Source: a virus
Length of the DNA stretch: 47,587 bases
Reading direction: 5' to 3' (one strand)
Virus record (IMG/VR): IMGVR_UViG_3300020428_000021
Span: 1-47,587 of that record
In this document: positions 4,596-46,863 of the stretch, one piece after another
How the letters are laid out: each line of letters begins with the position of its first letter
Position numbering within the stretch: the stretch's first letter is position 1
Made by a program: the position numbers and the translations under genes
Notes under the pieces: generated by a model
Told to the model about the DNA's origin: nothing
The model's database searches: none
The model's input: only the letters and a program-made list of their open reading frames with translations

Positions 4596-4621
4596 TTATT
4601 CTACCCTTTCTATTGTTTCTA

Positions 4622-4629: not shown

Positions 4630-4643
4630 AATTCAACATTAAA

Positions 4644-4717: not shown

Positions 4718-4736
4718 TAAAATGCGTTTTAGACAC

Positions 4737-27345: not shown

Positions 27346-27353
27346 GTATTTAT
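27346..27353 (-). promoter_or_regulatory. Late promoter element (ATAAATAC) overlapping a stop codon
   Basis: Minus-strand GAATAAATACAC provides both the GAA-TAA end of the giant protein gene and the full ATAAATAC late core. It sits about 25 bases before the preferred ATG at 27321. Its placement is the main reason to reject the longer frame of the following gene. Confidence 0.68.
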
Positions 27354-30300
27354 TCAGGTAACTTCGATGTATTGGCAGCAATGAACTGACTAATTGGAGT
27401 ACTGTTTTTAAGCAGTGTAACGCCTGATGTAGCAGTATTTTGGCCTCTATCGTACCATACTTGTCCTTGTTGTTTTATAATACTAATTCGTGTACCTGCC
27501 GCAGGCACATTTGTTAGTCTAATATATGCTGACGATCCGTCAACACTAAATTCAGCTTCAACCTTCTCATCGCCCGCCGGGCTAGTTGAACCTATAGTTT
27601 CGTTATACTGATCTATATATGTTTTGCGTAATCGCTTACCGCCAACAAATACTTCAATCGAGTCACATCTTCCATAAATTGCTGGAATAGTACCTTGATA
27701 CCAATCACTAACAGTACTTAGCTTAGGAGTAAAAGGAAGAGGTCCAATTAACTGGCTGCTTCCATCACTAACAAAATCTGTTCTTGATTGTGTATCTTTG
27801 TACGGAATAGTTTGATCCGTACTCATATCAACTACATATTCGCCTACTGGACTTAGAGTCTTGATTGCTGTACCTTGTGTACCTCTTCTCAAGTTGCTTA
27901 ATACATTACCGCTTTTGGTCATGTATTCAATTTTCTCACCGTCAATTTCAATAATGCCTGGTACATTGTTACTTGCAACAGGATTAAACAGTGAAGAAGC
28001 ATCTTTAAGCGTAATAGTTTCGTCATAGTAAGTTAATTCTTTTGCTAATACTAAACTATCAGTGATAGCATATCTAGTATATCTATTAATGTTTAGCATA
28101 TCTTTGCTAACTTGATAAGCACTTGGTAGTGCAAATATATTAGATCCAAATGCCATAATTTCAAAAACATCTGTTTCTTCATTAGATCCTTCAATATATA
28201 TGGCACCTTTTTCAACATCTAGTCTATAATCAACATCTTGTATTAGTTTATCTTTGTTTCTATAAACCCAAGTGTAACTTACACCCAGTGGTTTGAATGC
28301 TATAGGATAAAATGCTTTGCCGCCTGTATATAGATCGCTAACAATATCCATTGACGGATATTCACTAAACCAAGTAACATCAATAGTATCTCCTAATGTT
28401 AATGCTGTTGAATCGTTAATAACAATGTTGTTACCAAATACAGAGTATTCTGCTCCTAAGTTATTTTCAATTTTAATAACGTCACCGACCGTCAAATTTT
28501 CCGCAGTAACCTCAAGCTCTTTTGTTGTACCATTATAAACATAATCTGTAATGAATGTTTTTAATTCATTGTTAATAAAAACTTTAATATTGTTAGGAAC
28601 AATAGAACCTGATGATACAATAGGATCAACTCCTAATACAAACTTTTTAGTAACACCATCGTAAATATTATAAACAGTATCAACACTTTTTAATTTTTTA
28701 TTGTTTACTTCAACAATAGTTGAAGCCAATGCACTATCTCTACTTAACTGTACAAATGTATCTAAGTCATAGCTTTTAGTGCTACCGTCATATGTAAACT
28801 CTTGTTGATTAACTCTAATTAGAGATTGTAATGAACTATCAACATCTGTTGCTGCACTAAATGCAACTATTCTAATTACTGCTAGTCTATCAGGTTTTAC
28901 ACCAAATTGTACCAATGTTCTATTTGGTGTGTCAGGCAATAAATCTGTACTAGATATAAAGCCAGTGTCAGACTGAACGCCGTTGACTGATACAAATATA
29001 TTTGAAGTGTCAGCATAATTTGCATTGGTTAAAAATAATGTAGTATCACCGTCTGCAATAAATTCTTGGTAATCAAGTATTGATACACCACCTAATCCAA
29101 TCGAAACTATTTCAATTTTAGAGTTTTGTGCTGGTACACTTGAAAATTCAATAGTACTATTAGTAACACTAACTGTATATGTTGCTGGTTCAACTTTTAA
29201 ACCGTCAATATATACTATCACTGACTTGTTTTCAATAATTTTTTGTCCTATAGGATATGTTAATGTCGATCCGTCACCTATTCTAACATTAGATTTAATA
29301 GGAGCACCTGTTGAATCTTGATTTGAATGGAATACTTTAATACTTAAACTGTCTAAAACTTGTCCAGGAACGTTTTCTTCTGTTGCAGGAACTTGATCTG
29401 GACTAGTATATTCACCGCCGTCTATTGAAATGTCTTCTGCATTTAATCCTGTTGCTGTAGCATAAGCACCTTCCATTGCTGAAAGCGTTCCTCCTGATAG
29501 TTTTGTATCTAGCAAGTTATTATCATTAATAGTTACAGCACCATCGCTTTCTGCAGGACGGAAGATTAAGATATCTCCTGGATTTGTTGAAACATATGCA
29601 CCTACTTCTACAACTTTTGTGCTGCCGTCACCTATAAATGTTGGCATCTGTGCATGAGGATTAGTTGCTATTGAACTATCCCAAGCGTCTGTATAATTAG
29701 GATCATCAATTCTAAGTGTTGGCGGAGCATCAACGCCTTCTTCAGTTTGTAAATTAAGAATATCGTCAGGTATAACAGTACCTGCACGTTTTAAGTAAAT
29801 GTTAATAACTTGTCCGTCTGTAGGAATATAAGGAAGTGTCACACCAATTGTACTTCCATCTGCAACATAGTAGTAATCTGCTGCTGCTTCAACACTATCC
29901 CAACTATCTGTAAACCAAGGAAGTGCGTCCCAACCACCTGTAACATCAAATGTAGTACCTTGTACTTGAACACCACCAAAGTCAATACCTGTCATTAATT
30001 GATCGAGCTCTTTACCTACCATACCTGATGAAGGATTATAGTATTTTGTGATTCTGCTTACACTATCTAGGATTTCATCATTCTTTTCATATGTAATTGT
30101 AATGATATCGTTGTTAGCTGGTGGAGTTACAAATGTAATTTTACCTCTTAACTGTTTGTACACATCTGTTTCTAAAGTAAACAACGATATACTGTATTCG
30201 TTATTAAGAACTACTTGTCCATTATTAATAATTGATATTTTTGCTTTATCTCTAGTTGGTGGATATGTTAAATTAAACACAGCCGTTGCACCTGTAGCAG

Positions 30301-33300
30301 TAAATGACTCAGTTTGTGTAAAGTTGCTGTAGATACCTGTTTTAGAAATCCTATCAAACTTCATATTAACACTCATAGAACGTGTTTTACCGTTACCTAA
30401 TACTGCAACTGCTCTTGCAATTGACGGTGATGTTCCATTTCCACCTATAAGCGAAACTGTTGGTGTTGATGTGTATCCTAAACCTTGTTCTGTTAATTTA
30501 ATTCCAGTAACTTTACCATTTGAAACATATGCAGTTGCTTTAGCACCGCTTCCGCCGCCGCCGGTAATCAATACCTTAGGTGCTACTGTATAATCTGCAC
30601 CCTTACTTGCAACACTAATTTCTGTAATTTGATATCCTTTGTTATCATTCCAGAATTTATAAGGATATGTTGCTAATATATCGTCATTGCTTTCGACAGG
30701 AATAATTTTACCTTTCTCTTCTGAGTAATAAGGAGGTAAGTCAAAGTCTGCGACTGCAGAATTTGTAGTATCTAAGTTATCATACTTACTAATATACTCT
30801 CTTACAGTTGTACTATAAGGTTTGACTTCATTGATATAATCTAAGTAGCTTTCAAGGCTATCATTTTTGTAATTAGTTTTTTGTTTTAATGTGCCAACAT
30901 TGTGTGTTGCATTTAAGAAACTAGTTTTAAATGCCCAGTCAACATATGTTTGCTCTTTGAAAACATATCTAATAGATGTAAAGAACAAGTTATTCCATTC
31001 AACTGCATAATTGCCAATTAGAATATCTTCTTTTAATGCTTGTAAAATAAATCTAAGTTCGTTTGAAACTTCTTTATCATAAAAATCAATATCATACGAA
31101 TCTACGTTATCAAATCCAACACCACTTAGTGCTGTGTCATATAACTTTGTTGAAAATTGTATAGTTCCTAGCTCTCTACCGATCAACTCGTAATTGTTCA
31201 TAGCACCATTAGAAACGTTAGCAGTTTTCTTAAATACTGCCCAGCCGCCTGCACCGTATTCTTTGATTCTAATCAAATCACCGATTTCAACATTTATAGT
31301 TGGCTCTTCGTAAACACTAATAATTTCTGATATAATCCTTGAAGTAGGACCAAAGTCGTTGTCCCACCAGTCAGCATATGACCAATATGCTGGTGTGTTA
31401 TATGCTTGTGATCTACTTCTGTACCATGACTTTCTTGTATCGTCCCAAGCATAAATGCTCCAGAAGTTTTCAGCTGTTGAATCACTTTCAACAAGCACAC
31501 TAAACTGTCTTGGCTTGGTAGCAACATAGGTATAAAGTTTACCGCTATTAGTAATTGTTACACCATTAACTCTACCTTGATTGTCAATTGTAGTAACTGC
31601 TTCTGCACCTGTTCCGTCGCCTTCAAATTCAATAGTAGGAGGTATCTTGTATCCAAAACCTGCATTTACTATATCAATAGAGTTAATTTCATTATCAATA
31701 ATATTTGCACGTAATACACATTGCTTAGTTCTAGATGTACCAACTTCAAGTAACTCAGTGTAAGTATCAACTGTTGTATCATATAAATTTAACAAAGAAC
31801 TTGGTTTTGTATCAACTGAGTTCAATGTTGTAAAGTCTAATGAATCAGCAAATGATTCTTTGTGCATGATTGCATTAACGTTTGTAATTAAAGTTTTTAA
31901 TAAAGTCTTTCTATCAACAAACATACTTTGTCTTGGTCTATAACTAATACCGTATCTCTGTTTTTCTGGCAAATTAGTATCAGGTATTCTATTACCTTGT
32001 ACATCGTAACCAATTAAACTATCAATCCATTTATTTTCCAATGAAGTTGTTGGTAAACTATCTGCAACACCTTCAGTAAGAAGCTGATACTCTTGGTGTA
32101 TTTGATTCTGATTTTCTTGCTGTGTAAAGTATTCAATATTAAGAACAGCTGAATCGTCTGCTACTGTTGATTTATAGTTGAATAATAAAAACTTATCTTT
32201 ATCAATAAACGCTGCGTAAGTTTGCCCTAACGCTGAAGGATCACTAATTAAATTAAATACGTCACCTGCTGAGATAGATCTATCAGCAACACCTTCTGGT
32301 ACGGTAACTTTATTTTTTACCCAATAGTAATAATAAATTTCTGTTTGTAATCCTGTGTTAGGATTAAATTCTGCTTTTGTACTATAAGCACTATCGTCTG
32401 CATACAAAGGTTGACCTGATATACCTAGCGGTAGTCCCTCATTAGTATCTGCAACTACTGCCCACTCTGATGGTAATAACTTAGACTGTACCCATTCGTA
32501 AATATCAATTGATGCTCCAGGAGCCAATGCACCCCAAGCACCTACTCTGTATGATACTTCACCTTGCTCATAGTCATACCATTTAGCAGTTGAAATATCC
32601 CACCATAATTTACCTACGTTTTTAGTCTTCCAACAAATTGAATCGTCAACAACTGCACCTTCTGCTGTTCCTGTTGTATAGATTGCAGGATCATAAGGTA
32701 CTTTGTATGAAAGCTCTCTTTCTGCTTCTGCTAACAGTTTCATTTTAGCTGGATCAAAAATTTCTAAATCAAGAAGTTTTGTATCATCTTCTGTATCGTA
32801 TAATGCAATACGTTTAAACTTATCAATATCAACTGTCTGTGGTTGTGAGCCAATAATGTTTAGTGAATTTTGTCCTTCAGTTTTTTCAAATAATCTAACT
32901 GTACCTGTTTTGGCTCCTGTGAATAAAATATCAACACCTGATGATGCAGGTGATATGTAGTTAGGTGATCCAACTACGATAGCATTTCTTGTAGCATATA
33001 AACTAAATCCAAATGATTCGTTTAAAGAAAGTGCTTCATCAATTTTTTCTGATAAGAAGAATTTCTCATTCGTACCTTTTTTCTCAAATACATATACTGC
33101 ACCAGCAAAGCCATCATAATCTCTAAACGTAGTTCTGTTATTATCATATGAAGTCTGTGAAGCATCAAATCTAGTTTGTAATACAAACGGAGAGTTAGTT
33201 GCACCAATTGCAATTATCTCTGTGCCGCTTGATATTGAAATATCTTGCCCAAACATTTCATTTGGATAATCTGAATAACTTGTTAATTTTTGTTTTAGTC

Positions 33301-36300
33301 TATAAGCAAATTCTGTTGAATCAGTATCAAACTTGAATACATAAGCACTACCTTGATTCTGGAAGTTCTTGTCTGCTAATGGACTAGTTACAACTAATGT
33401 ATTACCTGAATAGTCTAAGCCAATTGCATAACCAAACTTATCACCTGAACTAATTACTTCGCTTGGATCAAGATCACTTAGGTATGGTAAAGCATCTGCG
33501 TTTATTTGTTGTAGTAATCTATAAACTCCAGCAGTGTTCTTTTTGTAAATGTAAACTTTACCCGAAGCAACACTTGTACTGTCACCTACGTTAACCCAAG
33601 GTTCGCCAGCATCTGGTGCTTCGTTGTAACTTCTGATTGTACTATCTGCACCTACTGCACTTGGTCCTAGATTTTGTAACTGATGATACCCACCCTGATA
33701 CTTAACTGTATCTCCTTGTGCGTATTCGTAGTTAGGTTTCCAGTGGCCTTTATAGTTTGTAAAATATTGTCCATCACTGTTAGGTGCACCTACTGCTAGT
33801 ACTGTTCCGTCATAGTTCATTGCAATAGAAGTACCAAAGCGATCGTCTGCTTTAATTAATTCAGTAAGCTGTTGATCATCAAGTAGTCCAGCATCAAGTG
33901 TTGAGCCATCATCGTTAGTCGCAATTGACATTGGAAGCGAAGCCCCTGTTGTTACTTCGTCCAGTAGTACCCAATCATTTGAGCCAGTTGTTAATGAACT
34001 TCCGTCTGCAACATTGTCAACTAATGCTTTCCACATATCACCATTTGAAAATACAATTGAGTCCTTAGGATAGAAAGTAGAATCATCAGCAGCATAAATG
34101 CCTTTGTAATTTTTATTATAGTCTAAGTGCCAGCCATCTGTTGTATCATATGTGTAAAGATATACACGACCTTTTGCATCTTGTGAGCCAGGCGCTGATA
34201 CTGACATGTAATAAGGTCCTGTACTACTTGCTTGACTAACTGCAATCTTCTGACCAAACCTTTCATTCTGTTCAGTTCTTGGACTTACTTGTATATCAAA
34301 CAAGTTCCACTGTTGAGCCTGGTATTGGTAAATGAATATTACCCCTGTCTCAAAGTCTCCTGCATTTGAACCATCTTGTTCAGCTTCAATTTTTTGTACT
34401 TCAACCCATTCGTTGCTGTATACATCAATAGTACTACCGTCACCATTAATATTATCTTGTGCTTTATAAAGTCTTCCTGAGAATAAAACAATATCGTTGA
34501 CTATGTAGTTTGCATTTACATCAAAAGGCCCTTTGTATCTATTAGGAATACCACTTGCTGTGTGTGCACCAACCATTAACCAATTACTATCTGGGCTTAG
34601 TGCTAGTTCAAGACCAAACGATCCTGTAACATCTGTTGTTAACCATGTTGGTGGTTCAAGCAATTGCTTAGACGATAGACCAGTTGCACCTTGAATATAA
34701 ACTCCTACCCTTGCTACATCAGGTATACCAACTATAACTTGTTTAAGTGTATCACTGTAAACTGTTTTTGTACCAACACTTGTTGGATCAATGATGCCAA
34801 AGTCAACAATTTTCTTTCCTGTAAACTGTTTTTTCTTTTCAACAACTTCCCAACGTGAGTTAACATTAGAGTCTACAAATAACTTCGATCCGTTGCTCAT
34901 TAATGCTAACTTTTCTACATCAACATTATCGTAAGAACTAAAACGTGCTTCAGTTAATAGCATTGGATAAGCACCTGTACTAGGTTCAAATCCTTGGTCT
35001 GCATCATACTTTTCTGTATGCTGTACTGTAACTGTATTAGTTGTTACTGCTTTTACTTTCCAGAATTGATTTAATCCTGCAATTGTTTTGATGCCAAATA
35101 TATCGTCAACTTTTAGTAAGTGTGCTTTTTCAAAAGTAAAGATTACTTCGTTATCATCATTACTTTGTAAGTTTGTAATTTTTAAATCGTAAACTGTGTT
35201 AGCTCTAAGTACAGTCCACGAAGGGCCATCGAATGTAACCCATATATGGGCGTTATCGCTGATTGTAGTAATTGCAAGATTTAATATTTCATCTCTATTT
35301 GTAACTGTAGCATCTGTTTGTCCTACTGCTACATACCCTGCTGTTAGAACAGGAGTAGAGTCATAGCTAACAGGATTAATTGCTGTTGTAAATGGTGTAG
35401 GTCCAAATTCAAAATTAGTAGAATTAACTCTATAATACCTATCAACTTTCTCTTGAGCTGATGCTTCAACTAATACCGGTTGAGGATTTAATTTAAATTT
35501 GTCAGTATCTAATCTAATTTCAATTCTTTCTGATTGATCAACTCCGCCTATCTGTCCTAATCTAAAGCCCCACTCTTCGTTTAAGTCAACCGCCGCAGTA
35601 GAAGTGTTGTCACCTAGTTTTGTAAACAATTTAGTAATTGCATTAGGTGTACCTTTCTCTCTGATAAATCCTTGATACAATCTAAATTGTGTTGTTGGAT
35701 CTTCAGACAAGTTTTCTAAATATGTTCTGCTTTGATACCCTACAGTGTGTCTTGCAAGATCTCTTTGGCTCTTTCCTAAGCCTTCAGACGCTACATCAAA
35801 GTAATCTTCAATTTGGTTAATTCTATAATCGAAGTTAGGAACAAGCTGCTTCTCAGGTGTTGAATCTAGTTGTGTCCAGTTATTATCATTAAACTCTTCT
35901 CCACTAGTATGATTACCTCTTGCAGTATATTTGTATGCTCTGTAAGATACAATATCGCCTAACTTATAATCGTAGTAAGGTGTCCAAGTTGCAAATGACA
36001 CATTATCAAATAAGAACCCTGGGCTAGTATAATCACCGTCCCAATCTGTTGTTCTAAATCCTTGAGCTTTAATTCTTTCTTGTCTATAACCTGTTGCTTT
36101 ATCAAAGATAGTATCATTGAAAACTGTTTTATCGTTAAACACAACAACGTGTTCTTTTAAAACATAGTTTAGTTTCAGTAAGTAGATACCTTCAGTTGTA
36201 TTTGTTGTGCTAATTGAAATATTTTGAAAATTTCTTGAAACATTTATTAACTTAGGATCTATTGCTGCACCGTCTGCTTTTAAAACACTATAGTCATAAA

Positions 36301-39300
36301 AACTATCTAGCAAGTTATCGGCAACACCGACTGCTAGTTTAACGTCCATACTTGTTGCACCCGGACTAACTGTTAGCACAGAACCTACTGCCCAATTATG
36401 AACTGTCCAATACATAAATTCTTTTGATGCTGTTACAAAGTCTTGTACTACTTGATTAGTACCATCGTAGTTTGCAAAGTCAAATCCTAAACTTTTTAAG
36501 TGTGCTTGATATCCTAACAAGAAGTCAACAACGTCTTGTATGGTATTGTACTCTGTTCCGTAACTAACTTTCTTAACTTTAAAACTATTAAAGTTTCTAC
36601 GCTGTTGAGCAGTAACAGCGTTCTCAACTGGCAAGTCAGGTAACTGTACTAAGTTACTTTTGTCAAATGTTTCTCCAGAGGTAAATGTAGCTGTTGCTCT
36701 ATAAAATGTTCCTCTATACTCAATAATACCGCCATTGTTAAATCTTTTTTCTTGTTCCCATGTTGCAAAAGGTTCTGAAGTTCCTGCAACTGATATAACA
36801 GGATCTTTTTGTTGTGGGAATGTTTCGAATGTATTAAAGTAAGGATTGATATCATCGTACCCATTAACTACCCAACCTTGTGTAGTTTTTTCAAAGATAA
36901 CACCACTATAAGTTACTGAGCTAATCGGTGAACTTACATTAAAGATAATGTCGTAGTTTTCTGGTGGAATAAACACACTTGCACTTGCTGAACTAGGATT
37001 TTTACTATCAAGCAAATATTTCTGCTGTTGTTTATCAACAAACCCACTTACTCTTGAACTTAGTCTAACATTAATACAATCAATATTCTTTTGTGCTTCA
37101 GCAACAGAAGCACCCTTAGACTTAATATAAGAAGCAATGTACATTGCAAGTCCTGCAACTTGTGTTGTTCCTGCTACAGGAAATTTTAAATCTGTTGGTG
37201 TTAAGAATGTATCTGATGTTACATTTACTAACTGATTTATAATATTTCTTTTAGTTACAGATCTATCAAAGTTTAATACCAAATAATCAAATGGCTTTAA
37301 CAATGCTAATGCTGTTGTTACTGCAAAAGCATATTCTGAACTTGTTTTCCATGCGTTTTCAACTGGACTGTCATCACCTAATTTAAATGGTCCTCTGTTA
37401 TTAACAAGCTGGAAGTTTCCTGCAAGACCTGATGTTAACGGATCAACAAGTTTACCGTCACAGTCACACGGAATATGATTTAAAATAGTTGTCCTAGCAT
37501 ATCTCGGATATATACCTGCTCGTGTACCTTGAGCAATTTTACCTTGTGCAATATCCTCCCATAATACCAAGTTACCGTTTGTGTAAGGAGCAACACCATA
37601 TTCTGTATCGAACCAACTAGGTTTAATACTAAAGCCTAACATTTCCCAAGGGTGTGTATGAGGTCTATCAGTGTCGTAGAAGTGTTTGTAAACACCTCTC
37701 CAATATCCAGGCAAGTTTTGTTTGCCTGTAGGATCAGTCATATTAGAATATGTATATGTAAATGGTTCTGTATCTACGAAATAATCATTTGTTGTATAAC
37801 CTAGGTTAGTGTTCTGTACCCAAGATAGAAACTCTTGGTTAATTACATTATCTAATTCTTCTTTTGTAAATGTACTGTTACCATAATATCCACCTAACGC
37901 TTTCTGTACATCAAAAATTGCAGGGTCATATTCTTGTTTAATGTTATTAAAAATACGCTTTTCAAATTCTAAAAGTAAGTCATCTCTATAATCATTATAC
38001 GCTGTAGTTTTACTACCGTCGTGTCCTTGTATTACATTTTTAGGTACTCTATAAGTGTCATCTAAATATTTTGTAGGCTCGTACTTAGGATAAAGTCCTA
38101 ACGAACTAGGAGTCGGTGGCACATGACTAAATGCTGTTGACACATACTCTCTTATTTCAATTCTATCACCTGGTACAAGAGTTCCTAAAATTGTAATAAA
38201 GCCTAATGCACCATTAACTTCATAATCTTTTCCAACAATAAGTTGTACATCGTTAAGGTAAACATATGCTGCTTTTCTACTTAATGTTGTTAAGTCAAAA
38301 TTTTCATTAAGTGTAAAATTCTTAATACCCGGGTCATCAACAACATAATCAGTTTTAGTAAATGCTCCAGCACCTATCATATCTGAGTCTGCAAAAGGAC
38401 TCTCAATGGTTTTAGTTTTCGTGATATTTTCTATAATATTATCTAAGAAGTCTGAAGTGTTTTCATTGAATTCGACTTCGATTGCTTTCTTAATAATATT
38501 TTGTTTAAAAATTGTGTATGCCGACTTAGCATATCTAAGAGACTTTACAATGTTAATATCTTTATCATTAATTAGTAATGTAGAAACTGCTGCAAAGCCC
38601 GAATGCTTCATAAATCTTGTTGAGTGCTTCTGATAACCGTCTACGTCTCTTAGGTTTGAAACTCCTGGAACAGATCCTATAACTCTCCTATCAAATTCAA
38701 GAGATGATTTCAAATGATCAGTTGCTTGTCCTAGTGTAAATGTTTTTAACTGTTCGTTGAGAGGATTTTTTTCTAGCCCTGCTGGTATTTGATAGTAACC
38801 TTGATCAGGCTTAACTGCTGCAACTACTTTTACAGATAGCACATCATTTATACTAAATGTTCTATCAAACGTAAATTGATTTGTGTTTCTAGTATATGTA
38901 TTAGTAATATACTCGCCATTTAGATAAAAATTAATTAGTGCATCGCTTGGAAGTGTTTCCCAATCAACAGTATTAAATATTCCTATTGAATCTGCTGTAT
39001 TAAATGTATACTGATCAATAATTGGTTGTATATAAGTTTTGTCAGTTGATATCCAACCGTTAGCATATACTCCATCAATTTTATAAAAACCTGTGTTGGT
39101 GTTTTTATTATATTGCTTTTGCAATAATGTGTAAGCAAATTTTTCTGTTTCAAAACTCCAATCAAATACAATGTCGCCTACATTATCAATGTTTGCATAC
39201 GTTAATGCAAATCCTAATTCTGTATCTACAACTCCACTGCCAACCTTATAACCTAAAAGGTTGCTACCAACAAAACTTGATACAGGGTATGTAGTTTCGT

Positions 39301-41131
39301 TTGAAAATGCAACACCTGTAGAATCATATAATTCAAATTTAGGTGCTTGGTTAGTAGCAATTTTTTCTTGACTAAGTTTCCAAGTTGTACCATCATAATG
39401 ATACATCTTACCAGAGTTAACTGTACCTCGTCTTACTAACACACCTTCGTTAAATGCTGATAGTGTATCAGCAGTTTCTTTTAAATTAATCTGTGTTGTA
39501 TTGTTGTGTTTTACAAACTTTACTTCATAAATTCTATTGTTTGCAAGACTGTCTGTATCTGCAATAACTAGAACTCTTGCGCCTTCAAACAAAAACTCAC
39601 CGTCAATATTATAACCCTGCGAACCTTCAATTTTAGAAAATACATCATCTGTAAATGTATCTACATAGTCAACTGTTTGTTTTGCAATTCCACCATGATT
39701 ATATAATTGTATATCAGGAAGGAATTCAATGATAGGTCTTTTAGCTCTTGCTGATTCTAATGAATCGAAGTCTTGATTTCTAAGTTTATAAGCTGATTCT
39801 AAAACAGTTCTGTGGAACCATCTATTATATCTAGACCATGGGTTTGAGTCTTTGCTGTTTCTAGAAATTGTAATGTAATCTTTATTACCAGGATACTGTG
39901 ACGCATCATCAAAAGGCTGTGTATCAAATCCTTGATTGTCAAATAGTATGTCAGGAGAATCTGTATCTAACGGTGGTGGTACTAAGTCAGCAAATCTAAT
40001 TAATTTAATTTCGTTTCCTACACCTTCAATTAACCACTGTCCTTCTGCATACTTAGACGGCTGTACTTGTCCTCTAAACTCTACAACTAATCCGTTTGTA
40101 AACTGAAGTCCGTCTGCTGTTGTATAATCTTTTTTACCTACAATTTCTTTATCAACATCAATAAAAGTATTCGTGTCAATATCTGAAATAATGAATCTAC
40201 CTAGTCTGTTAGGAGAAACATCACTTTGGTAATATAAAATATCTGGAGAATTTTGTGGAACTTTAAATGTAACTGTTCCTACTTTAGTGCCGTTGCCTTC
40301 TACTCCGTCTTTATATAGTAGTGATGCAAAGCCAGCATCATTTGAAACTAGTTTCCAATCCTGTGAATCAACTGTAATACTACTTCCGTCTAGTGGACTA
40401 GTTTCATTAACACACTTCCAAAGTTGCTTATTGAATACTGCTAGTTCTCCTGGAAAGTATGCTTTGTTAGTATTAAATTCTAGTGAACCTGTATCGTAAT
40501 TGTTTCTAATATAGAAACCTTCTTCGGGAGAATTAATTTCAAACTTATATTCTTGTCCTCTATATAAAGTAATGTCAGGATTATTAGTTACGCTATCTGG
40601 TGTAACTATCCAACTGTTTATTCCTGTTCCAACTTTATATGTACTTTGGATATTTGCTGCTTGTCCATATACATTTACAGATGGCGGGCCTCCAGGGATC
40701 CAATAGTATTCTCTATAATTAACAAACTTGTCCCATATAATAGGAGGGTTCCAACTGTAGTGTTCTTGCTCTGTAGTTTTATCATCTCTCTCATTAGCAT
40801 TGCCGAAAAATTCGACCATGCTTTTAAGATCAATATAATCTTTAAACTTTAAAATTTCTTGGTTTTCTTCAACTGTAACCGCTGGCTCAAGTTGATATCG
40901 ACTTCTTAGCGTTTGATCTGTATCAAGATAAACATCTTTACCAGTAAATGTTTTTCCGTAACGCTTACCGATGTAACCTACAGTTTTATCAACAACACCT
41001 GGTTGAACTAGTGGATCAAGTACACCTGATAAAAATTTATCATTGGCTGGTGTTTGAAAGACATTAGGTAATAAGTCTTTGGTTTTTCTAATAGGTATTT
41101 CACTGTTAGGAAACTTTTTATTATCTGCCAT
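27350..41131 (-). CDS. Giant 4593-aa baseplate/tail structural protein with propeller and CBM-like modules
   Basis: This protein takes up 29% of the window and sits where gp7/gp8-like wedge genes are found, just after gp6 (TAATG overlap). The N-terminus (FPNSEIPIRKTKDLLPNVFQ) is one I recall as conserved in marine T4-like phages. Modules seen: carbohydrate-binding-like domains (CBM5/12 pattern, G-D-x-V-x-Y/F..Y-x-A..W) near residues 217-260, 1447-1494, 1707-1756, 2197-2245, 2340-2392 and 2457-2515. FG-GAP-like propeller blades lie at about 2100-2750, for example RFGTSIAMNYDGTVLAVGAP. Two G-x-G-Y..P-x-V repeat zones occur near 3148-3210 and 3504-3587. Repeated GDGST strand modules run from about 3830 to the end (GQVWYDRGQN...FIAANTSKLPE). 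No catalytic domain is evident. A role at the tail tip is likely. Confidence 0.87.
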   Translation of the reverse strand: MADNKKFPNSEIPIRKTKDLLPNVFQTPANDKFLSGVLDPLVQPGVVDKTVGYIGKRYGKTFTGKDVYLDTDQTLRSRYQLEPAVTVEENQEILKFKDYIDLKSMVEFFGNANERDDKTTEQEHYSWNPPIIWDKFVNYREYYWIPGGPPSVNVYGQAANIQSTYKVGTGINSWIVTPDSVTNNPDITLYRGQEYKFEINSPEEGFYIRNNYDTGSLEFNTNKAYFPGELAVFNKQLWKCVNETSPLDGSSITVDSQDWKLVSNDAGFASLLYKDGVEGNGTKVGTVTFKVPQNSPDILYYQSDVSPNRLGRFIISDIDTNTFIDVDKEIVGKKDYTTADGLQFTNGLVVEFRGQVQPSKYAEGQWLIEGVGNEIKLIRFADLVPPPLDTDSPDILFDNQGFDTQPFDDASQYPGNKDYITISRNSKDSNPWSRYNRWFHRTVLESAYKLRNQDFDSLESARAKRPIIEFLPDIQLYNHGGIAKQTVDYVDTFTDDVFSKIEGSQGYNIDGEFLFEGARVLVIADTDSLANNRIYEVKFVKHNNTTQINLKETADTLSAFNEGVLVRRGTVNSGKMYHYDGTTWKLSQEKIATNQAPKFELYDSTGVAFSNETTYPVSSFVGSNLLGYKVGSGVVDTELGFALTYANIDNVGDIVFDWSFETEKFAYTLLQKQYNKNTNTGFYKIDGVYANGWISTDKTYIQPIIDQYTFNTADSIGIFNTVDWETLPSDALINFYLNGEYITNTYTRNTNQFTFDRTFSINDVLSVKVVAAVKPDQGYYQIPAGLEKNPLNEQLKTFTLGQATDHLKSSLEFDRRVIGSVPGVSNLRDVDGYQKHSTRFMKHSGFAAVSTLLINDKDINIVKSLRYAKSAYTIFKQNIIKKAIEVEFNENTSDFLDNIIENITKTKTIESPFADSDMIGAGAFTKTDYVVDDPGIKNFTLNENFDLTTLSRKAAYVYLNDVQLIVGKDYEVNGALGFITILGTLVPGDRIEIREYVSTAFSHVPPTPSSLGLYPKYEPTKYLDDTYRVPKNVIQGHDGSKTTAYNDYRDDLLLEFEKRIFNNIKQEYDPAIFDVQKALGGYYGNSTFTKEELDNVINQEFLSWVQNTNLGYTTNDYFVDTEPFTYTYSNMTDPTGKQNLPGYWRGVYKHFYDTDRPHTHPWEMLGFSIKPSWFDTEYGVAPYTNGNLVLWEDIAQGKIAQGTRAGIYPRYARTTILNHIPCDCDGKLVDPLTSGLAGNFQLVNNRGPFKLGDDSPVENAWKTSSEYAFAVTTALALLKPFDYLVLNFDRSVTKRNIINQLVNVTSDTFLTPTDLKFPVAGTTQVAGLAMYIASYIKSKGASVAEAQKNIDCINVRLSSRVSGFVDKQQQKYLLDSKNPSSASASVFIPPENYDIIFNVSSPISSVTYSGVIFEKTTQGWVVNGYDDINPYFNTFETFPQQKDPVISVAGTSEPFATWEQEKRFNNGGIIEYRGTFYRATATFTSGETFDKSNLVQLPDLPVENAVTAQQRRNFNSFKVKKVSYGTEYNTIQDVVDFLLGYQAHLKSLGFDFANYDGTNQVVQDFVTASKEFMYWTVHNWAVGSVLTVSPGATSMDVKLAVGVADNLLDSFYDYSVLKADGAAIDPKLINVSRNFQNISISTTNTTEGIYLLKLNYVLKEHVVVFNDKTVFNDTIFDKATGYRQERIKAQGFRTTDWDGDYTSPGFLFDNVSFATWTPYYDYKLGDIVSYRAYKYTARGNHTSGEEFNDNNWTQLDSTPEKQLVPNFDYRINQIEDYFDVASEGLGKSQRDLARHTVGYQSRTYLENLSEDPTTQFRLYQGFIREKGTPNAITKLFTKLGDNTSTAAVDLNEEWGFRLGQIGGVDQSERIEIRLDTDKFKLNPQPVLVEASAQEKVDRYYRVNSTNFEFGPTPFTTAINPVSYDSTPVLTAGYVAVGQTDATVTNRDEILNLAITTISDNAHIWVTFDGPSWTVLRANTVYDLKITNLQSNDDNEVIFTFEKAHLLKVDDIFGIKTIAGLNQFWKVKAVTTNTVTVQHTEKYDADQGFEPSTGAYPMLLTEARFSSYDNVDVEKLALMSNGSKLFVDSNVNSRWEVVEKKKQFTGKKIVDFGIIDPTSVGTKTVYSDTLKQVIVGIPDVARVGVYIQGATGLSSKQLLEPPTWLTTDVTGSFGLELALSPDSNWLMVGAHTASGIPNRYKGPFDVNANYIVNDIVLFSGRLYKAQDNINGDGSTIDVYSNEWVEVQKIEAEQDGSNAGDFETGVIFIYQYQAQQWNLFDIQVSPRTEQNERFGQKIAVSQASSTGPYYMSVSAPGSQDAKGRVYLYTYDTTDGWHLDYNKNYKGIYAADDSTFYPKDSIVFSNGDMWKALVDNVADGSSLTTGSNDWVLLDEVTTGASLPMSIATNDDGSTLDAGLLDDQQLTELIKADDRFGTSIAMNYDGTVLAVGAPNSDGQYFTNYKGHWKPNYEYAQGDTVKYQGGYHQLQNLGPSAVGADSTIRSYNEAPDAGEPWVNVGDSTSVASGKVYIYKKNTAGVYRLLQQINADALPYLSDLDPSEVISSGDKFGYAIGLDYSGNTLVVTSPLADKNFQNQGSAYVFKFDTDSTEFAYRLKQKLTSYSDYPNEMFGQDISISSGTEIIAIGATNSPFVLQTRFDASQTSYDNNRTTFRDYDGFAGAVYVFEKKGTNEKFFLSEKIDEALSLNESFGFSLYATRNAIVVGSPNYISPASSGVDILFTGAKTGTVRLFEKTEGQNSLNIIGSQPQTVDIDKFKRIALYDTEDDTKLLDLEIFDPAKMKLLAEAERELSYKVPYDPAIYTTGTAEGAVVDDSICWKTKNVGKLWWDISTAKWYDYEQGEVSYRVGAWGALAPGASIDIYEWVQSKLLPSEWAVVADTNEGLPLGISGQPLYADDSAYSTKAEFNPNTGLQTEIYYYYWVKNKVTVPEGVADRSISAGDVFNLISDPSALGQTYAAFIDKDKFLLFNYKSTVADDSAVLNIEYFTQQENQNQIHQEYQLLTEGVADSLPTTSLENKWIDSLIGYDVQGNRIPDTNLPEKQRYGISYRPRQSMFVDRKTLLKTLITNVNAIMHKESFADSLDFTTLNSVDTKPSSLLNLYDTTVDTYTELLEVGTSRTKQCVLRANIIDNEINSIDIVNAGFGYKIPPTIEFEGDGTGAEAVTTIDNQGRVNGVTITNSGKLYTYVATKPRQFSVLVESDSTAENFWSIYAWDDTRKSWYRSRSQAYNTPAYWSYADWWDNDFGPTSRIISEIISVYEEPTINVEIGDLIRIKEYGAGGWAVFKKTANVSNGAMNNYELIGRELGTIQFSTKLYDTALSGVGFDNVDSYDIDFYDKEVSNELRFILQALKEDILIGNYAVEWNNLFFTSIRYVFKEQTYVDWAFKTSFLNATHNVGTLKQKTNYKNDSLESYLDYINEVKPYSTTVREYISKYDNLDTTNSAVADFDLPPYYSEEKGKIIPVESNDDILATYPYKFWNDNKGYQITEISVASKGADYTVAPKVLITGGGGSGAKATAYVSNGKVTGIKLTEQGLGYTSTPTVSLIGGNGTSPSIARAVAVLGNGKTRSMSVNMKFDRISKTGIYSNFTQTESFTATGATAVFNLTYPPTRDKAKISIINNGQVVLNNEYSISLFTLETDVYKQLRGKITFVTPPANNDIITITYEKNDEILDSVSRITKYYNPSSGMVGKELDQLMTGIDFGGVQVQGTTFDVTGGWDALPWFTDSWDSVEAAADYYYVADGSTIGVTLPYIPTDGQVINIYLKRAGTVIPDDILNLQTEEGVDAPPTLRIDDPNYTDAWDSSIATNPHAQMPTFIGDGSTKVVEVGAYVSTNPGDILIFRPAESDGAVTINDNNLLDTKLSGGTLSAMEGAYATATGLNAEDISIDGGEYTSPDQVPATEENVPGQVLDSLSIKVFHSNQDSTGAPIKSNVRIGDGSTLTYPIGQKIIENKSVIVYIDGLKVEPATYTVSVTNSTIEFSSVPAQNSKIEIVSIGLGGVSILDYQEFIADGDTTLFLTNANYADTSNIFVSVNGVQSDTGFISSTDLLPDTPNRTLVQFGVKPDRLAVIRIVAFSAATDVDSSLQSLIRVNQQEFTYDGSTKSYDLDTFVQLSRDSALASTIVEVNNKKLKSVDTVYNIYDGVTKKFVLGVDPIVSSGSIVPNNIKVFINNELKTFITDYVYNGTTKELEVTAENLTVGDVIKIENNLGAEYSVFGNNIVINDSTALTLGDTIDVTWFSEYPSMDIVSDLYTGGKAFYPIAFKPLGVSYTWVYRNKDKLIQDVDYRLDVEKGAIYIEGSNEETDVFEIMAFGSNIFALPSAYQVSKDMLNINRYTRYAITDSLVLAKELTYYDETITLKDASSLFNPVASNNVPGIIEIDGEKIEYMTKSGNVLSNLRRGTQGTAIKTLSPVGEYVVDMSTDQTIPYKDTQSRTDFVSDGSSQLIGPLPFTPKLSTVSDWYQGTIPAIYGRCDSIEVFVGGKRLRKTYIDQYNETIGSTSPAGDEKVEAEFSVDGSSAYIRLTNVPAAGTRISIIKQQGQVWYDRGQNTATSGVTLLKNSTPISQFIAANTSKLPE

Positions 41132-44100
41132 TAGTAACTAGAACCTCCGCTACTAGAAGAACTTGATGAACTAGAGCTGGATGAACTAGAACTGGATGAA
41201 CTAGAACTGGATGAACTAGATGTGGTATTTGACGTTGAGCCAACTGTGCTGGAACTAATTTCGGCAGCAGTAATACTTGCTACAATTTCAATATCATCAA
41301 CAGTGGCGCCACTAACAAAAATTTCGTCTGGTTTACTTTGTATTTCAAATAGGCTACCAAATGCCTGTGATGTCTGTCTTGGCAATATAACAAAATTTGA
41401 TATATCAGGCGAAACTACATTTAGTATGTAAGTTGAAAGTTCGCTTAGATAGAATCTATCTCCAAAGTCCCAGTTATTAACATCAAAGAACTGATTCATT
41501 GCTGTTACGATTCTTACTTTTAAATCATTATTGTTAAGATTTCTTGTAGGATTCTTAACTACTTTAAACTGAGCTTGTAACTTAGTATCAGCAGTACTGC
41601 CAAACAACACTTTGTACTTCACAGGATGGTAAACAACTTCATCACTGATCGACTTAATGGCGTTTAGTCCTGTACCAAACGTTACCCTAAGTTCGTCATT
41701 TGTCGGTGCAGTCGGCTCTGTTGTACGAGCACCTGCTAGATAATTTCTAAATTCTGTATCATAAGATCTAGTTAGAAGGTAAAGGTCAATAATGTTTGTT
41801 ACACTAGGATCAATTCTTCTATCTTCACTAGCTGAATGTGTGTATTGAAACTTAATATTATCTCTACCAATATTTGCTCTATATGTAGGTTCTAATACAA
41901 GTGTATTAGTTGTGGTATCAACACGCTTGACTCTATTTTCTGCACTATCATAAAAATATATTAACTGTCCGTTTGTATAATTGTTAATATTAACCAATGA
42001 CTCTTTTTCAATTACTAAGATAGGAGTTACTGCTGGGTCAACTAAGTTGAATACTGTCGTACCATAATTATCTTTCTCTGATTTAAAGAAAAGAAATTTT
42101 AAATCAAGATCTTCACCAACAACGCTAACAAACGATTCTGGATTATCAATAACACCATCTGCGTCTGAATCTCTAAAACCTAATCTAATTTCTTTTGTAC
42201 TTTCATAACCGTCGTCAAACTTAATTACATCTGCAACTTCAAATGGATAATCTTGTACTAAAGATCCTGTGCCAACATTTTTAGAATTAATACCTAAAAC
42301 ATTTACAACATCTTTTTCAACCTTACCTGTTAAACTGTTATATGCTTTTTCGGTTTTATCAAAGTAAAATCTATTCTGCTTTTTACTACCAAATACATAG
42401 TTAAGTGTACGTGTTCGTACAATATATTGATCGTTGTCTTTTACAAATGCCATAATCCAAGAACTATCTAAGTTATTGTTTGTTATGTCGCCTGATTTAC
42501 CTAAAGCAAATGGTGAAGTTAAGTCTAAGTTTTGATTTTGAATAATTTTCCAACTAGAATCTGTATCATCGTATCTCAACCCAAAGTTTAAATTTGCAAA
42601 GGCTTGATTAACCATTGACGATTCAAGTGCATCTGAAAGATCTGTTACAAACTTAGGAACAATTCTTGAAGCAACTGCACCTGAAGGTACATTATCATTA
42701 AACACAATAGGTCCAATGCCTTTTGCATTGGCTCCTGTGCCTGCGTTTGTTCCGTCACCTGCAACACTAATAACTTTTGTCCAGATAAAATCCGTTGCAC
42801 CAATATGATCAGCAGCGCCATTCATAAGTGTTCCGTCAGGCATGAAGTGCTGGCCTGCTGGTGCAACAAATTTAACATTTGCTCCTGCTGTAATGTACTT
42901 TAAGTTATTAGTAGAATACGTGCCTACTTTAAGTAGCGATAAATCAACTTTGTTTGTAAAGTAACCAGTACCTTGATTAATACCGTTTGTAGACGCATTC
43001 CATACAATATTATCGCTTGTAAATAAAATGCTGTCGTATTTTGTAAAGTAAAAATTGTATACATCTGTTTCTGTAAAGACACCTTCTACTTTTTGTTTAA
43101 TAAAGTTAATAATGTCTGATCTGTTTGTAAATTTAAAAGTAAGTGACTTTTCATCTTCTTCTTTATACATATAACCGTCTGTACCAAATACATTAACAGA
43201 ACTATATTTTCCACTTGCATCAATAAGATCAAAGTTACGTGATAAACCACTTGATGTTCTATTTGATGCTTTTACTTTTAAAATGTTTTGTGATGTTGAT
43301 AGAGGTGCAAGATTATAATCTTCACCAGTAATCATTCTATTTTGTGTGTAATAATTTGCAGGTGCATTCTTTTTAATAGATGCAACTGACTCTGTAGGAG
43401 TTGCTGTTGCAACAGTTGACTGTAATGCCATTCCAATTGTTAATGTATGTGCAATACCTGCTTGGTTAATATACTCAACTGAGATATTAACATTTTTCAT
43501 TTCACTAGGTGAAATTGTATAACTTAATCCATTACTAATTCTATAATAAGTTCTAAAAGAACCTTTAGGTAAGTTACCATACACACCGTCAGCAAAAGTT
43601 AAATCAATCATATCGGTTTGTTTAGTTTCTACACCGTAAATATTTCTGATATCTCCAGTCAAGCTATTGTAAGCAATATTGTTTCCTGTAAGGCTTGATA
43701 CTTTTGTCCACTCTTGAGCTTGGCTTCCGTTTGCAAGTAATTCAAACAACCAAACATCATCGTTGTTAATTCCTTTTGCATCAACTGCAACTTTTTCATT
43801 TGTTGATGGCGCATCAATTGTAAAGTCTGCTAACTCCAAAGAACCCTGTTTGAAGTGCATAAAGAATCCTGTGTTAGGACTTGCTGGACCTTTGTTGTCC
43901 TGTCTATAAAGAAATCCTAACTGATTACCTGGAGTAGGTGATTCTTCGTAAATTTCTTCTGCACCTTTGAATGTTGTACTTAAAATTTCAAAAACCATTT
44001 GTCTACCTGCAACAGTCTTTGAAAAAGTATACATTGGTACATCAGTACTAGCAGTTCTAAATCTGTATTGTTCTGTTGGAATGCTTTGAATAACATCTGT

Positions 44101-44625
44101 TCCTTGGCTTCTACCAAACTTTGTGTTATCAGACATAGCAGCATCAAGAAGCAAAACAAACTGTTCTGCCCAGTTTGTATTAGTTGGGTCGTTCCATTTA
44201 ACTGTTTGACTTGCTAGATTACGTCCATTACTATCAACCAACTGTTCTGTAGTTGAAACTGATGTAAATTTAAGTAAGCCTTTTGCTGGCAAGTTACGCT
44301 TTGCATTGTAACTAAGCATTTTAGCAATACGTAGTACACTTTCTTTACGCTCAGCAAGTTCAATAAAGTTTTCTCTACTTGCTAAATCAATACGGAAGGA
44401 TAAACTTTGTCCTAGAAACGCAATAGCATCAATCAGTGCAAGGTACTCTGAGCTTTCAATGTAATCGTTAAAATCTTCTGGATAGTTCTCTCTTAGATAG
44501 GTGATGATCACACGTCTTAGATTCTCAAAATCATAAGATTTGAAATCAGCATTAGCGAAAGTCTGGTATATACGTGTCCAGTCTTCGTTAAGTAATAAAT
44601 TATTTTGTCTTGACGTTGTGCTCAT
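41131..44625 (-). CDS. 6: Baseplate wedge protein gp6-like
   Basis: The 1164-residue protein is the wedge component that, in T4, forms the inner ring of the baseplate with gp25 and gp53. The N-terminus (NEDWTRIYQTFANADFKSYD, then DFNDYIESSEYLALIDAIAF and RIDLASRENFIELAERKESV) matches T4 gp6 closely by eye. T4 gp6 is about 660 residues, so this is far longer. The central and C-terminal parts are beta-rich, and the last residues are a run of about 24 serines ending GGSSY, encoded by a 15-bp tandem repeat. A late promoter and AGGAA ribosome site precede it. It overlaps the giant gene as TAATG. Confidence 0.94.
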   Translation of the reverse strand: MSTTSRQNNLLLNEDWTRIYQTFANADFKSYDFENLRRVIITYLRENYPEDFNDYIESSEYLALIDAIAFLGQSLSFRIDLASRENFIELAERKESVLRIAKMLSYNAKRNLPAKGLLKFTSVSTTEQLVDSNGRNLASQTVKWNDPTNTNWAEQFVLLLDAAMSDNTKFGRSQGTDVIQSIPTEQYRFRTASTDVPMYTFSKTVAGRQMVFEILSTTFKGAEEIYEESPTPGNQLGFLYRQDNKGPASPNTGFFMHFKQGSLELADFTIDAPSTNEKVAVDAKGINNDDVWLFELLANGSQAQEWTKVSSLTGNNIAYNSLTGDIRNIYGVETKQTDMIDLTFADGVYGNLPKGSFRTYYRISNGLSYTISPSEMKNVNISVEYINQAGIAHTLTIGMALQSTVATATPTESVASIKKNAPANYYTQNRMITGEDYNLAPLSTSQNILKVKASNRTSSGLSRNFDLIDASGKYSSVNVFGTDGYMYKEEDEKSLTFKFTNRSDIINFIKQKVEGVFTETDVYNFYFTKYDSILFTSDNIVWNASTNGINQGTGYFTNKVDLSLLKVGTYSTNNLKYITAGANVKFVAPAGQHFMPDGTLMNGAADHIGATDFIWTKVISVAGDGTNAGTGANAKGIGPIVFNDNVPSGAVASRIVPKFVTDLSDALESSMVNQAFANLNFGLRYDDTDSSWKIIQNQNLDLTSPFALGKSGDITNNNLDSSWIMAFVKDNDQYIVRTRTLNYVFGSKKQNRFYFDKTEKAYNSLTGKVEKDVVNVLGINSKNVGTGSLVQDYPFEVADVIKFDDGYESTKEIRLGFRDSDADGVIDNPESFVSVVGEDLDLKFLFFKSEKDNYGTTVFNLVDPAVTPILVIEKESLVNINNYTNGQLIYFYDSAENRVKRVDTTTNTLVLEPTYRANIGRDNIKFQYTHSASEDRRIDPSVTNIIDLYLLTRSYDTEFRNYLAGARTTEPTAPTNDELRVTFGTGLNAIKSISDEVVYHPVKYKVLFGSTADTKLQAQFKVVKNPTRNLNNNDLKVRIVTAMNQFFDVNNWDFGDRFYLSELSTYILNVVSPDISNFVILPRQTSQAFGSLFEIQSKPDEIFVSGATVDDIEIVASITAAEISSSTVGSTSNTTSSSSSSSSSSSSSSSSSSSSSSSSGGSSY
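41161..41220 (-). repeat. Four tandem 15-bp repeats encoding the poly-serine tail of gp6
   Basis: Four units of 15 bp (plus-strand consensus ACTGGATGAACTAGA, with two units differing by one base each) run from 41161 to 41220. On the coding strand each unit encodes five serines with mixed codons (TCT AGT TCA TCC AGT). Codon mixing with exact repetition shows the tract grew by unit duplication, not by single-codon slippage. The number of units may vary among relatives. Confidence 0.92.
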
Positions 44626-44666: not shown

Positions 44667-45104
44667 TCAGTTTATAACGGAGTTATCTCTGTCGAAATTA
44701 AACTTCATTCTCTCGCTAACATTGAACGGTATATATGTTACATCGGCTTCGATTCTAATTCCTTGTTCGGTACTGTCTACTCCTACAGCATTTACCTGTA
44801 TTCTTGGGTCATAATTGATAATATCTTGTACATCTTTAGCAATCATTTCTTTAACTTGTGGTGTAAATTGCTCAAAGATCATATCCCAAATAATAGTTCC
44901 GAAGTTTGGATTTTCTAATTTTTCACCTTTTCTAATATAAAAGTGATTGATAATATCTTGTTTTACTAAATCTATATCGTACAGCTTAAAGTTATCAACT
45001 GAATTCGCTGAACTAAATCCTTTATACGCATAACTTGTTGCGCCTACTTGCCCTGCTGATGCTTGGTTTACTGATACAGTTTTTTGATTGTATAACTTAG
45101 CCAT
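44667..45104 (-). CDS. 25: Baseplate wedge subunit gp25-like (GPW/gp25 family)
   Basis: This 145-residue wedge protein is close to the T4 gp25 length of 132. It is recognised by IINHFYIRKGEKLENPNFGT then IIWDMIFEQFTPQVKEMI, the conserved part of gp25 and contractile-system sheath initiators (residues about 51-90). The C-terminal strand region IRIEADVTYIPFNVSERMKF is also typical. In T4 it lies beside gp6 and gp53 and starts sheath assembly. The start overlaps the stop of gp5 by eight bases, so the two are probably co-translated. Confidence 0.93.
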   Translation of the reverse strand: MAKLYNQKTVSVNQASAGQVGATSYAYKGFSSANSVDNFKLYDIDLVKQDIINHFYIRKGEKLENPNFGTIIWDMIFEQFTPQVKEMIAKDVQDIINYDPRIQVNAVGVDSTEQGIRIEADVTYIPFNVSERMKFNFDRDNSVIN

Positions 45105-46863
45105 TTTGCTTCTCCTCTCTATCTGTTGCTAGTGCTGTAACAAACTGAGGTGCTTGGTTTTCATGCAATAACCACGGTTCGTGCATTGGAATACGCCTCA
45201 TGATAGATGATATTGTTCCATCTTGCCATTTTGTAGTTGCCCAGTCTTTCAATGGGTTTACTAATGGGTTATCGTATTTAATTAAATCTGTAATTGTTAA
45301 TGCTGTATCAGCCTGTGCTGCTCCTGTTGCTGCTGGACCATTAAAGTGTATGTTAGGACTTGCTGACATAATAATATCTCCGCCTGATGCAACTTCTGTA
45401 TTAGCGCCTGATGTTAAGTAATTGTAACCGCCTGTGTTGATATCCCAGTTCGCTTGTGTATCTGATCTATCACCAATTGTTTGAATATCAGTAGTTCCGC
45501 CAATAAAGTGTCTGTGGTTGCCAGCAACAGAAATATCTAAGTCTCCAGCAAGAGGAACATCAGCTGCGCTAGTGTACATTCTTGTTTCAATTTTTCCATT
45601 GGCACCAATTAATATGTTAGTGTTAAATGCACTTTCTATTTGTACTCTACCATTCTCTTGTTTAAGAGCATCTTCAATTTTTGCATCTTGATGTAAACTA
45701 TCAGGTGCTTGGTATTCAGCAGTTGCTTTTATGTTTATGTTACGTCCTGCTTCCATGTTAATATCTCTATCTGCTTTAATATTAACATCGCTCATTGAGT
45801 GAACACTTACACTATCATTTGCGAATACATCTACTTTACCATTAGATGTTAATTCAACCCACGCTGTTCCTTTTGAGTTACCAATATAAATCAAATCTTC
45901 TGAATTATGTAAAAGAAGTTGATGTCCTGTTCTTGTTCTAAGTCTTGTGTACTCATTATATGGCAAGTCAAGCAATCCTATGTTAGGATTTGCATCTGTT
46001 GCAGCAACATATTCCACTGGTCCGTCTTGTGGAGCAGATTTTCTAATGTAACGATCATCACCATCGTCCATAACAAACTGTGTTCCGCCTAATCGTGTAA
46101 CAGGAATTTCAACACTTAAATTTTCTTTTGTGCCACGTCTCATACGTTTACCGTTTGGACCGTAGTCTAAAGGTCCAGGCGTACTAATACCAAATACTGC
46201 ATTAGGATTATTACGTCTACTAGATGTAGTAGTAACCCCTCTTACATCATCTTCTAATAATCCTTGAAAGAAAAATCTATCTGTTATAGGATGTATAGGC
46301 TTTGGAATTTTCTCAGCATCAATTTCGTTCTCGCCATCTGGAGAACCATTTATTCGTTTGTTAATCTCACCAACTGGCAAAGGCATTTTTGTATTGAACT
46401 TTTTCTTTTCTTCGGCTGACAAAGCTGCCAATGATGATCTTTCGTCTTCAGTTGGACTAGTGTCTGCTGCACCAATAGCAGGTACCATGTGATTTGCAAA
46501 CCTCGGTGGAACACATGCAAACCAATAACCTGATGCAGGATTACCTTCAATAAACATTACCATAACTGTTACACCAACATCTGGTGGAACTGCCCACATA
46601 CCATAACTTTGTTGTGTATCTTTAAAGTCGTTTTGATTCATTCCTAATGCTTCGTATGGTGTGTGTCCGAAGAATGGAGATGCATAATTTACAAGATATG
46701 TTTGTCCATCAGTGTTACCTGCGTTACCAGATTCTCTGAGTAACGAAACTTTTAGTCTACCATTGAACGTAGGATCAAGTACATCAATTACCGTAGCAAG
46801 ATAAGCACCTGAGCCTAATGCTCCTGCCTGAGTATTATATCTGGTTCTCTTTTCAACTGGCAT
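45097..46863 (-). CDS. 5: Baseplate hub protein gp5-like, without a recognisable lysozyme domain
   Basis: This 588-residue hub/spike protein begins with an OB-fold region (LATVIDVLDPTFNGRLKVSL, through GVTVMVMFIEGNPASGYWFA). The C-terminal half has the spike-type segment LRTRTGHQLLLHNSEDLIYI followed by short strand repeats (VSVHSMSDVNIKADRDINME). That pattern matches gp5/VgrG beta-helix repeats. T4 gp5 has a lysozyme domain between these parts. Here the corresponding region (about 135-235) is a charged Pro-rich linker with no space for lysozyme. If membrane-puncturing lysis is needed, another protein must supply it. It overlaps both neighbours (one base upstream, eight bases with gp25). Confidence 0.9.
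   Translation of the reverse strand: MPVEKRTRYNTQAGALGSGAYLATVIDVLDPTFNGRLKVSLLRESGNAGNTDGQTYLVNYASPFFGHTPYEALGMNQNDFKDTQQSYGMWAVPPDVGVTVMVMFIEGNPASGYWFACVPPRFANHMVPAIGAADTSPTEDERSSLAALSAEEKKKFNTKMPLPVGEINKRINGSPDGENEIDAEKIPKPIHPITDRFFFQGLLEDDVRGVTTTSSRRNNPNAVFGISTPGPLDYGPNGKRMRRGTKENLSVEIPVTRLGGTQFVMDDGDDRYIRKSAPQDGPVEYVAATDANPNIGLLDLPYNEYTRLRTRTGHQLLLHNSEDLIYIGNSKGTAWVELTSNGKVDVFANDSVSVHSMSDVNIKADRDINMEAGRNINIKATAEYQAPDSLHQDAKIEDALKQENGRVQIESAFNTNILIGANGKIETRMYTSAADVPLAGDLDISVAGNHRHFIGGTTDIQTIGDRSDTQANWDINTGGYNYLTSGANTEVASGGDIIMSASPNIHFNGPAATGAAQADTALTITDLIKYDNPLVNPLKDWATTKWQDGTISSIMRRIPMHEPWLLHENQAPQFVTALATDREEKQNG

Follow-up and report, generated by a model that had tools for sequence, protein, structure and literature searches.

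The central region of a giant protein encoded in the baseplate gene cluster of an uncultured virus is probably an integrin-type beta-propeller of the FG-GAP_2 family, which occupies a fixed site of this protein in a clade of jumbo myophages and whose likeliest job is adhesion. The protein is encoded by an open reading frame (ORF) of 4593 aa at 27350..41131 of the IMG/VR record IMGVR_UViG_3300020428_000021, of which positions 1 to 47,587 (the window) were analyzed. The gene, its domains, and the neighboring baseplate genes described below lie on the minus strand. The propeller covers residues 2123-2762 (32846..34765), including small modules that resemble carbohydrate-binding module (CBM) family 5/12 and interrupt or follow its blades.

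The propeller repeats were identified at the sequence level. A first-pass annotation of the window, made from the letters alone, had described residues 2100-2750 as an FG-GAP repeat region, which maps to window positions 34834-32882. The Pfam family FG-GAP_2 (PF14312) matches at 1.1e-11 on the whole giant protein and at 5.2e-15 on the region alone, with a score of 58.9 bits for the region and a curated cut-off of 23. Two of the three families named in that annotation, PF14312 and the CBM5/12 family PF02839, were thus found; the third, PF01839, gave no match in the Pfam search of the window, and PF14312 is the fitting model. FG-GAP_2 was present in all 63 aligned relatives (E <= 0.001). It is stronger in relatives, with up to five stretches passing alone and a value of 6.6e-24 in L026 (L-numbers label the relatives and records compared).

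The blades were assigned from the motifs and the predicted strands. Clear FG motifs lie at residues 2172, 2292, 2432, 2566, 2627, and 2707, in agreement with the six clear repeats and one weak first repeat described initially. Blade 1 (residues 2123-2158; 34658..34765) is weak in sequence and has four strands in the model. Blade 2 (2172-2282; 34286..34618) and blade 4 (2432-2543; 33503..33838) are each split by a module, and blade 3 (2292-2336; 34124..34258) and blade 5 (2566-2616; 33284..33436) lie between and after them. Long b-c loops are found in blade 6 (2627-2696; 33044..33253) and in blade 7 (2707-2762; 32846..33013), where the loop is also variable.

AlphaFold2 was used to predict the structure of residues 2055-2768 from an alignment of 63 sequences. 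The model has a predicted local distance difference test score (pLDDT) of 84.9 and a predicted template modeling score (pTM) of 0.85, and it supersedes an earlier model from 16 sequences (pLDDT 67, pTM 0.62), in which integrin matches were already present. Its 28 strands make up seven four-stranded blades, from a1 at residue 2123 to d7 at residue 2762. The top PDB matches are integrin alpha subunits, with an E value of 2.5e-14, a template modeling score (TM-score) of 0.62 on propeller chains of 450 residues, and 11-12% identity. The root mean square deviation from the integrin chains, taken across the entire alignment, amounts to 8-10 A; the probable cause is that the alignment runs through the modules. 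Closure of the disc is deduced from these matches to a seven-bladed fold, not from coordinates. The prediction therefore agrees with the seven-bladed propeller anticipated in the first-pass annotation; both the fold and the blade count of region 2123-2762 are those of a predicted structure. The nearest predicted viral structures belong to large algal and amoebal viruses (FG-GAP proteins), uncultured Caudovirales, cyanophage S-TIM5 (a virion protein), and phage Atu_ph07 (a "hemagglutinin").

A chance or low-complexity pattern could be suspected from blade 1, which has no clear FG motif, and from the pLDDT of 67 in the early, shallow model. The Pfam matches in 63 of 63 relatives, the pTM of the final model, and the integrin matches make such a pattern extremely improbable, and it was rejected. 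Similarly, the modules are not a product of chance, since CBM_5_12 was found in 57 of the 63 aligned relatives.

Three CBM5/12-like modules are placed in the propeller. Module 1 (CBM1; residues 2197-2247, 34391..34543) lies in the b-c loop of blade 2, module 2 (CBM2; 2341-2392, 33956..34111) in the d-a linker from blade 3 to blade 4, and module 3 (CBM3; 2459-2516, 33584..33757) in the b-c loop of blade 4. The modules had been proposed to interrupt or follow blades 1-3; they are real, and their places are corrected here to blade 2, the 3-4 linker, and blade 4. CBM_5_12 (PF02839) matches the whole protein at 6e-11 with 42.6 bits and the region at 6.9e-8 with 32.8 bits, over a cut-off of 26.2. 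As to aromatic residues of the chitin-binding kind, a late Trp is conserved without exception in module 1 and almost so in module 2, but the WW motif of family 5 is absent from the modules of the window. Outside the propeller, CBM5/12-like modules were also found at residues 223-262 (40346..40465), 1462-1497 (36641..36748), and 1721-1755 (35867..35971) of the giant protein, and the first conserved core (core I, below) of the Phosso, Atu_ph07, and PA5oct giant proteins contains one such module each.

In the up-and-down topology of a propeller blade, the a-b and c-d loops lie on the face opposite that of the b-c and d-a loops. In the model, the b-c/d-a face holds 399 loop residues and the a-b/c-d face holds 63, spread over 14 loops of <=6 residues. 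The one-face preference of the modules is clear in the window. In integrins, the I domain sits between blades 2 and 3 (PMC12422189). It thus occupies a d-a loop, so that by topology the phage modules stand on the face that matches the I-domain face. Six loops show a variation of >=20 residues among the relatives, and five of these are on this top face (P 0.067).

The baseplate setting of the giant protein is supported by synteny and by mass spectrometry of relatives, in line with the initial description of a phage baseplate protein. The ORF matches PHROG 10938, "virion structural protein", at 1052.8 bits. The minus-strand gene order in the window is a baseplate hub/tail lysozyme-like protein (45097..46863), a gp25-like baseplate wedge subunit (44667..45104), a gp6-like baseplate wedge subunit (41131..44625), the giant protein, and then fibre-like proteins. 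PA5oct, PBECO4, and Phosso are among the phages that also have the order gp25-gp6-giant. For the homologue in PA5oct, the annotation records detection by electrospray ionization tandem mass spectrometry (ESI-MS/MS), and CBB virions were found to contain CBB_236, which neighbors the gp6 gene CBB_237 (PMC5259590). The position directly after gp6 is that of gp7 in T4.

Two conserved cores flank the propeller site. Core I (residues 1-1893; 35453..41131) is common to PA5oct, Atu_ph07, SCTP-2, PBECO4, Vibrio phage 2.275, and Phosso, and core II (residues from about 2745/2767 to 3500; 30632..32833) resumes 3' of the propeller. The identity of the two cores with the giant proteins of these phages, including the PBECO4 group, is mostly 22-38%. 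Beyond core II, residues 3502-3588 form a GxGY-type repeat stretch that matches PHROG 460 (head closure) and also repeats in the giant proteins of Atu_ph07, Phosso, and S-MbCM6. Leptin matches in whole-protein scans of the ORF were judged to be chance. Elsewhere in the window, beyond the fibre genes, the overlapping genes at 3417-10442 include two adjacent ones for radical-SAM proteins and one for a protein that resembles UDP-glucose dehydrogenase; they may form a cluster for the modification of sugars or peptides.

The distribution of the propeller was determined in scans of environmental viral contigs. Close relatives were found together with others that have a core identity to the queries of just 26-51%, and the clade contains 117 sequences after removal of near-copies at 85%. 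The sequences of the relatives reach 353 kb, which indicates that these are jumbo phages. FG-GAP-like blade matches, at least weak ones, were present at the site in every environmental relative that covers it. Pfam confirmed FG-GAP in nine of the ten divergent relatives tested; the one without a match is L342, whose group shows just two blade hits, both weak. The six cultured relatives named above have 215-1520 residues without FG-GAP between the cores. A LamG-like domain guessed by eye at the SCTP-2 site found nothing in Pfam or the PDB and is not claimed. When the propeller was compared with 50,697 phage records by tblastn, none matched at 1e-5; a looser limit gave only other Phosso ORFs (9e-4) and one match of E 4. 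A scan of genome contigs by a pattern method found no relative by that method. The Phosso record (Sinorhizobium phage, L213) contains, at 48.3-69.0 kb, two adjacent ORFs of ~3160 and ~3690 aa with dozens of FG-GAP_2 repeats, which are likely strings of several propellers.

In a phylogeny of core II rooted on PBECO4, a branch with support 100/98.9 separates the propeller carriers from the six cultured phages, which have no propeller at the site. A tree of 123 rows agrees with this split. With the PBECO4 rooting, a single gain of the propeller at the site is the simplest reading; the propeller may also have been lost in the cultured group. Bare propellers, in which no CBM was found, branch at the base of the carriers. 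A tree with all CBM-bearing propellers as one clade was rejected (p value of the approximately unbiased test, p-AU, 0.00025), which implies at least two gains or losses of the decoration.

Module content varies further among the relatives. Module 2 is absent or shortened in L151, L161, L165, and L204, and module 3 is lost in L204. A 51-residue module is nested in module 2 of many relatives and in module 3 of others (L024/L073), and module 1 of L034 contains an insert of similar kind, the likeness of the inserts being judged by eye. The pattern of this module is "YTI..GTTDW..GTG", and its nesting at different blades in L026, L024, and L034 suggests a mobile module. L325 contains an E1_FCCH-type module inside the propeller instead. 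The ratio of nonsynonymous to synonymous substitution rates (dN/dS) is ~0.2 or less throughout the blades and the modules, which indicates purifying selection. Tandem CBM5/12 arrays of up to ~10 copies were also observed in ORFs of 1114-2786 aa (G001, also G002, G003, and G004); on L182 (G001, 353123 bases) they lie at 228.6-229.9 kb and 234.2-235.4 kb.

From this arrangement, we infer exposure on the baseplate, glycan binding, and a role in adsorption. The propeller would be a constant scaffold, with CBM5/12-like and other small beta-modules plugged into its loops, mostly on the I-domain face. The disc on the baseplate could present these modules to host-surface or secreted polysaccharide, and low-affinity, multivalent contact with the polysaccharide might allow reversible attachment and orientation before the fibres commit. 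The tail-tip lectin platform proposed in the first-pass annotation would be a plausible hypothesis. Functional precedents counted for adhesion are CBM2 of the Dit protein of phage J-1 and the propellers of phi11, PRD1, and phiKZ (PMC6115969).

Several points weigh against this reading. The propeller carriers are known here as sequences. Profile comparison detected no homology between the giant core and T4 gp7 (hhalign probability <=0.2%), and because only the position matches, the product is named here a gp7-position protein, not gp7. The bottom-face loop c3-d3 carries inserts of 85-190 residues in some relatives, so that the one-face preference is no strict rule across them. The dN/dS analysis showed no diversifying selection on the propeller or its top face, as might be seen in a protein that determines host range. 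Further CBM5/12-like modules are present in the core of the giant protein and, arranged in tandem, in additional giant ORFs of these phages, and one weakly matches Anabaena All3316/Cis13, a protein of a contractile injection system (PMC8894136); for these reasons, the modules may be structural. The propeller could accordingly be a brace that holds neighboring wedges, fibres, or sheath, with CBM-like modules as protein-protein spacers that bind no sugar, and the purifying selection found everywhere fits this role as well. A brace is nevertheless rather unlikely, because the gain, loss, and nesting of modules at the same loops in close relatives are easier to understand for surface-exposed and dispensable parts, and bare propellers manage without any module.

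The bare propellers, which are basal in the clade and have been kept, could also mean that the propeller itself is the adhesin, with a top face that binds protein or glycan and with modules that merely adjust or shield the site. In integrins, the alpha-subunit propeller and the beta subunit hold the ligand between them (PMC12422189), and in Atu_ph07 the FG-GAP propeller is encoded by a gene of its own next to tail-sheath genes. The phage propeller, however, revealed no conserved ligand site, and a large share of the top-face loop residues in the clade of the window belongs to modules, which leaves this second alternative with a small probability. Adhesion through modules presented on a propeller scaffold is favored over both.

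A broader proposal is made with more reserve. This jumbo-phage lineage may use the propeller as an exchangeable docking bay, whose loops accept modules and even nested ones, so that recognition would evolve by insertion besides the swapping of fibres. In any case, a giant protein annotated merely as "virion structural" can be assigned a concrete domain of the adhesion type throughout an uncultured clade of jumbo phages, and the series from bare to decorated propellers lets module gain be compared with host or habitat.

Propellers as such are already known in phages. Beta-propellers occur in the tail or receptor-binding proteins phiKZ gp131C, phi11 gp45, and PRD1 P2; these are separate proteins, with no nested CBMs described there (PMC6115969). 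Kelch-type propellers were reported in CBB (PMC5259590). The "hemagglutinin" gp320 of Atu_ph07 likewise contains an FG-GAP_2 propeller (5.2e-18) in a jumbo phage; it is a separate protein of 393 aa (L212:8019-9200) beside two tail sheath genes, not a part of the giant protein, and its annotation as a streptococcal hemagglutinin is probably wrong. The PHROG 10938 proteins of cultured phages (PA5oct gp355, Atu_ph07 gp180, PBECO4 gp538, and SCTP-2 gp140) share the cores and the gene order and have no FG-GAP at the site. Among the papers searched, none mentions FG-GAP together with a phage baseplate or with a jumbo phage, and a review of 224 jumbo phages lists discoidin, LamG, SPRY, and YHYH domains with no mention of propeller, integrin, or carbohydrate-binding domains. 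The novelty thus seems to lie in two points: across a large clade, the PHROG 10938 protein includes an integrin-type propeller as a permanent component, and modules are nested in the blades of this propeller; as far as found, the arrangement is widespread there and undescribed. The first-pass annotation knew of no described phage protein with this exact layout, and no description was found here either. Many environmental relatives share the layout, so that it is not unique to this phage, and many others have the propeller without modules.

A close parallel in a phage is the 7022-aa virion protein of the Synechococcus phage S-MbCM6 (T4-GC_108; L347:1-19368). This protein is likewise giant, lies in a baseplate gene cluster, and pairs an FG-GAP_2 propeller (9.8e-41) with lectin-type LamG domains (two Laminin_G_3), together with YHYH and a reelin-like subrepeat. 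The pairing of a propeller with domains of a sugar-binding type is therefore not unique to the window, but the exact layout differs, since S-MbCM6 has no CBM5/12 and its LamG domains lie beside the propeller, not inside the blades. No core homology was detected between the two giant proteins, which points to repeated acquisition of FG-GAP propellers by giant baseplate proteins that are unrelated. For the mode of work, the nearest precedent is the "evolved" Dit of Lactobacillus phage J-1, in which the added CBMs protrude from the baseplate, one of them is inserted in a loop, and CBM2 binds host cells (PMC6115969). The J-1 protein is a siphophage Dit ring with other CBM families and no propeller.

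The integrin alpha propeller likewise has seven FG-GAP-type blades and a module inserted in an inter-blade loop. In the later blades of integrin alpha subunits, strands a and b are joined by calcium-binding DxDxDG-type loops. In the sequence and model of the phage propeller, no such loop was seen, and its a-b loops of 3-6 residues are too short. The integrin subunit continues into thigh, calf, and transmembrane regions and has a beta-subunit partner, whereas the phage propeller is flanked by baseplate cores. The inserts differ as well, as the integrin carries an I domain and the phage carries CBM-like modules at three places. The phage propeller thus offers, in a bacterial virus, a counterpart to the I-domain insertion of integrins.

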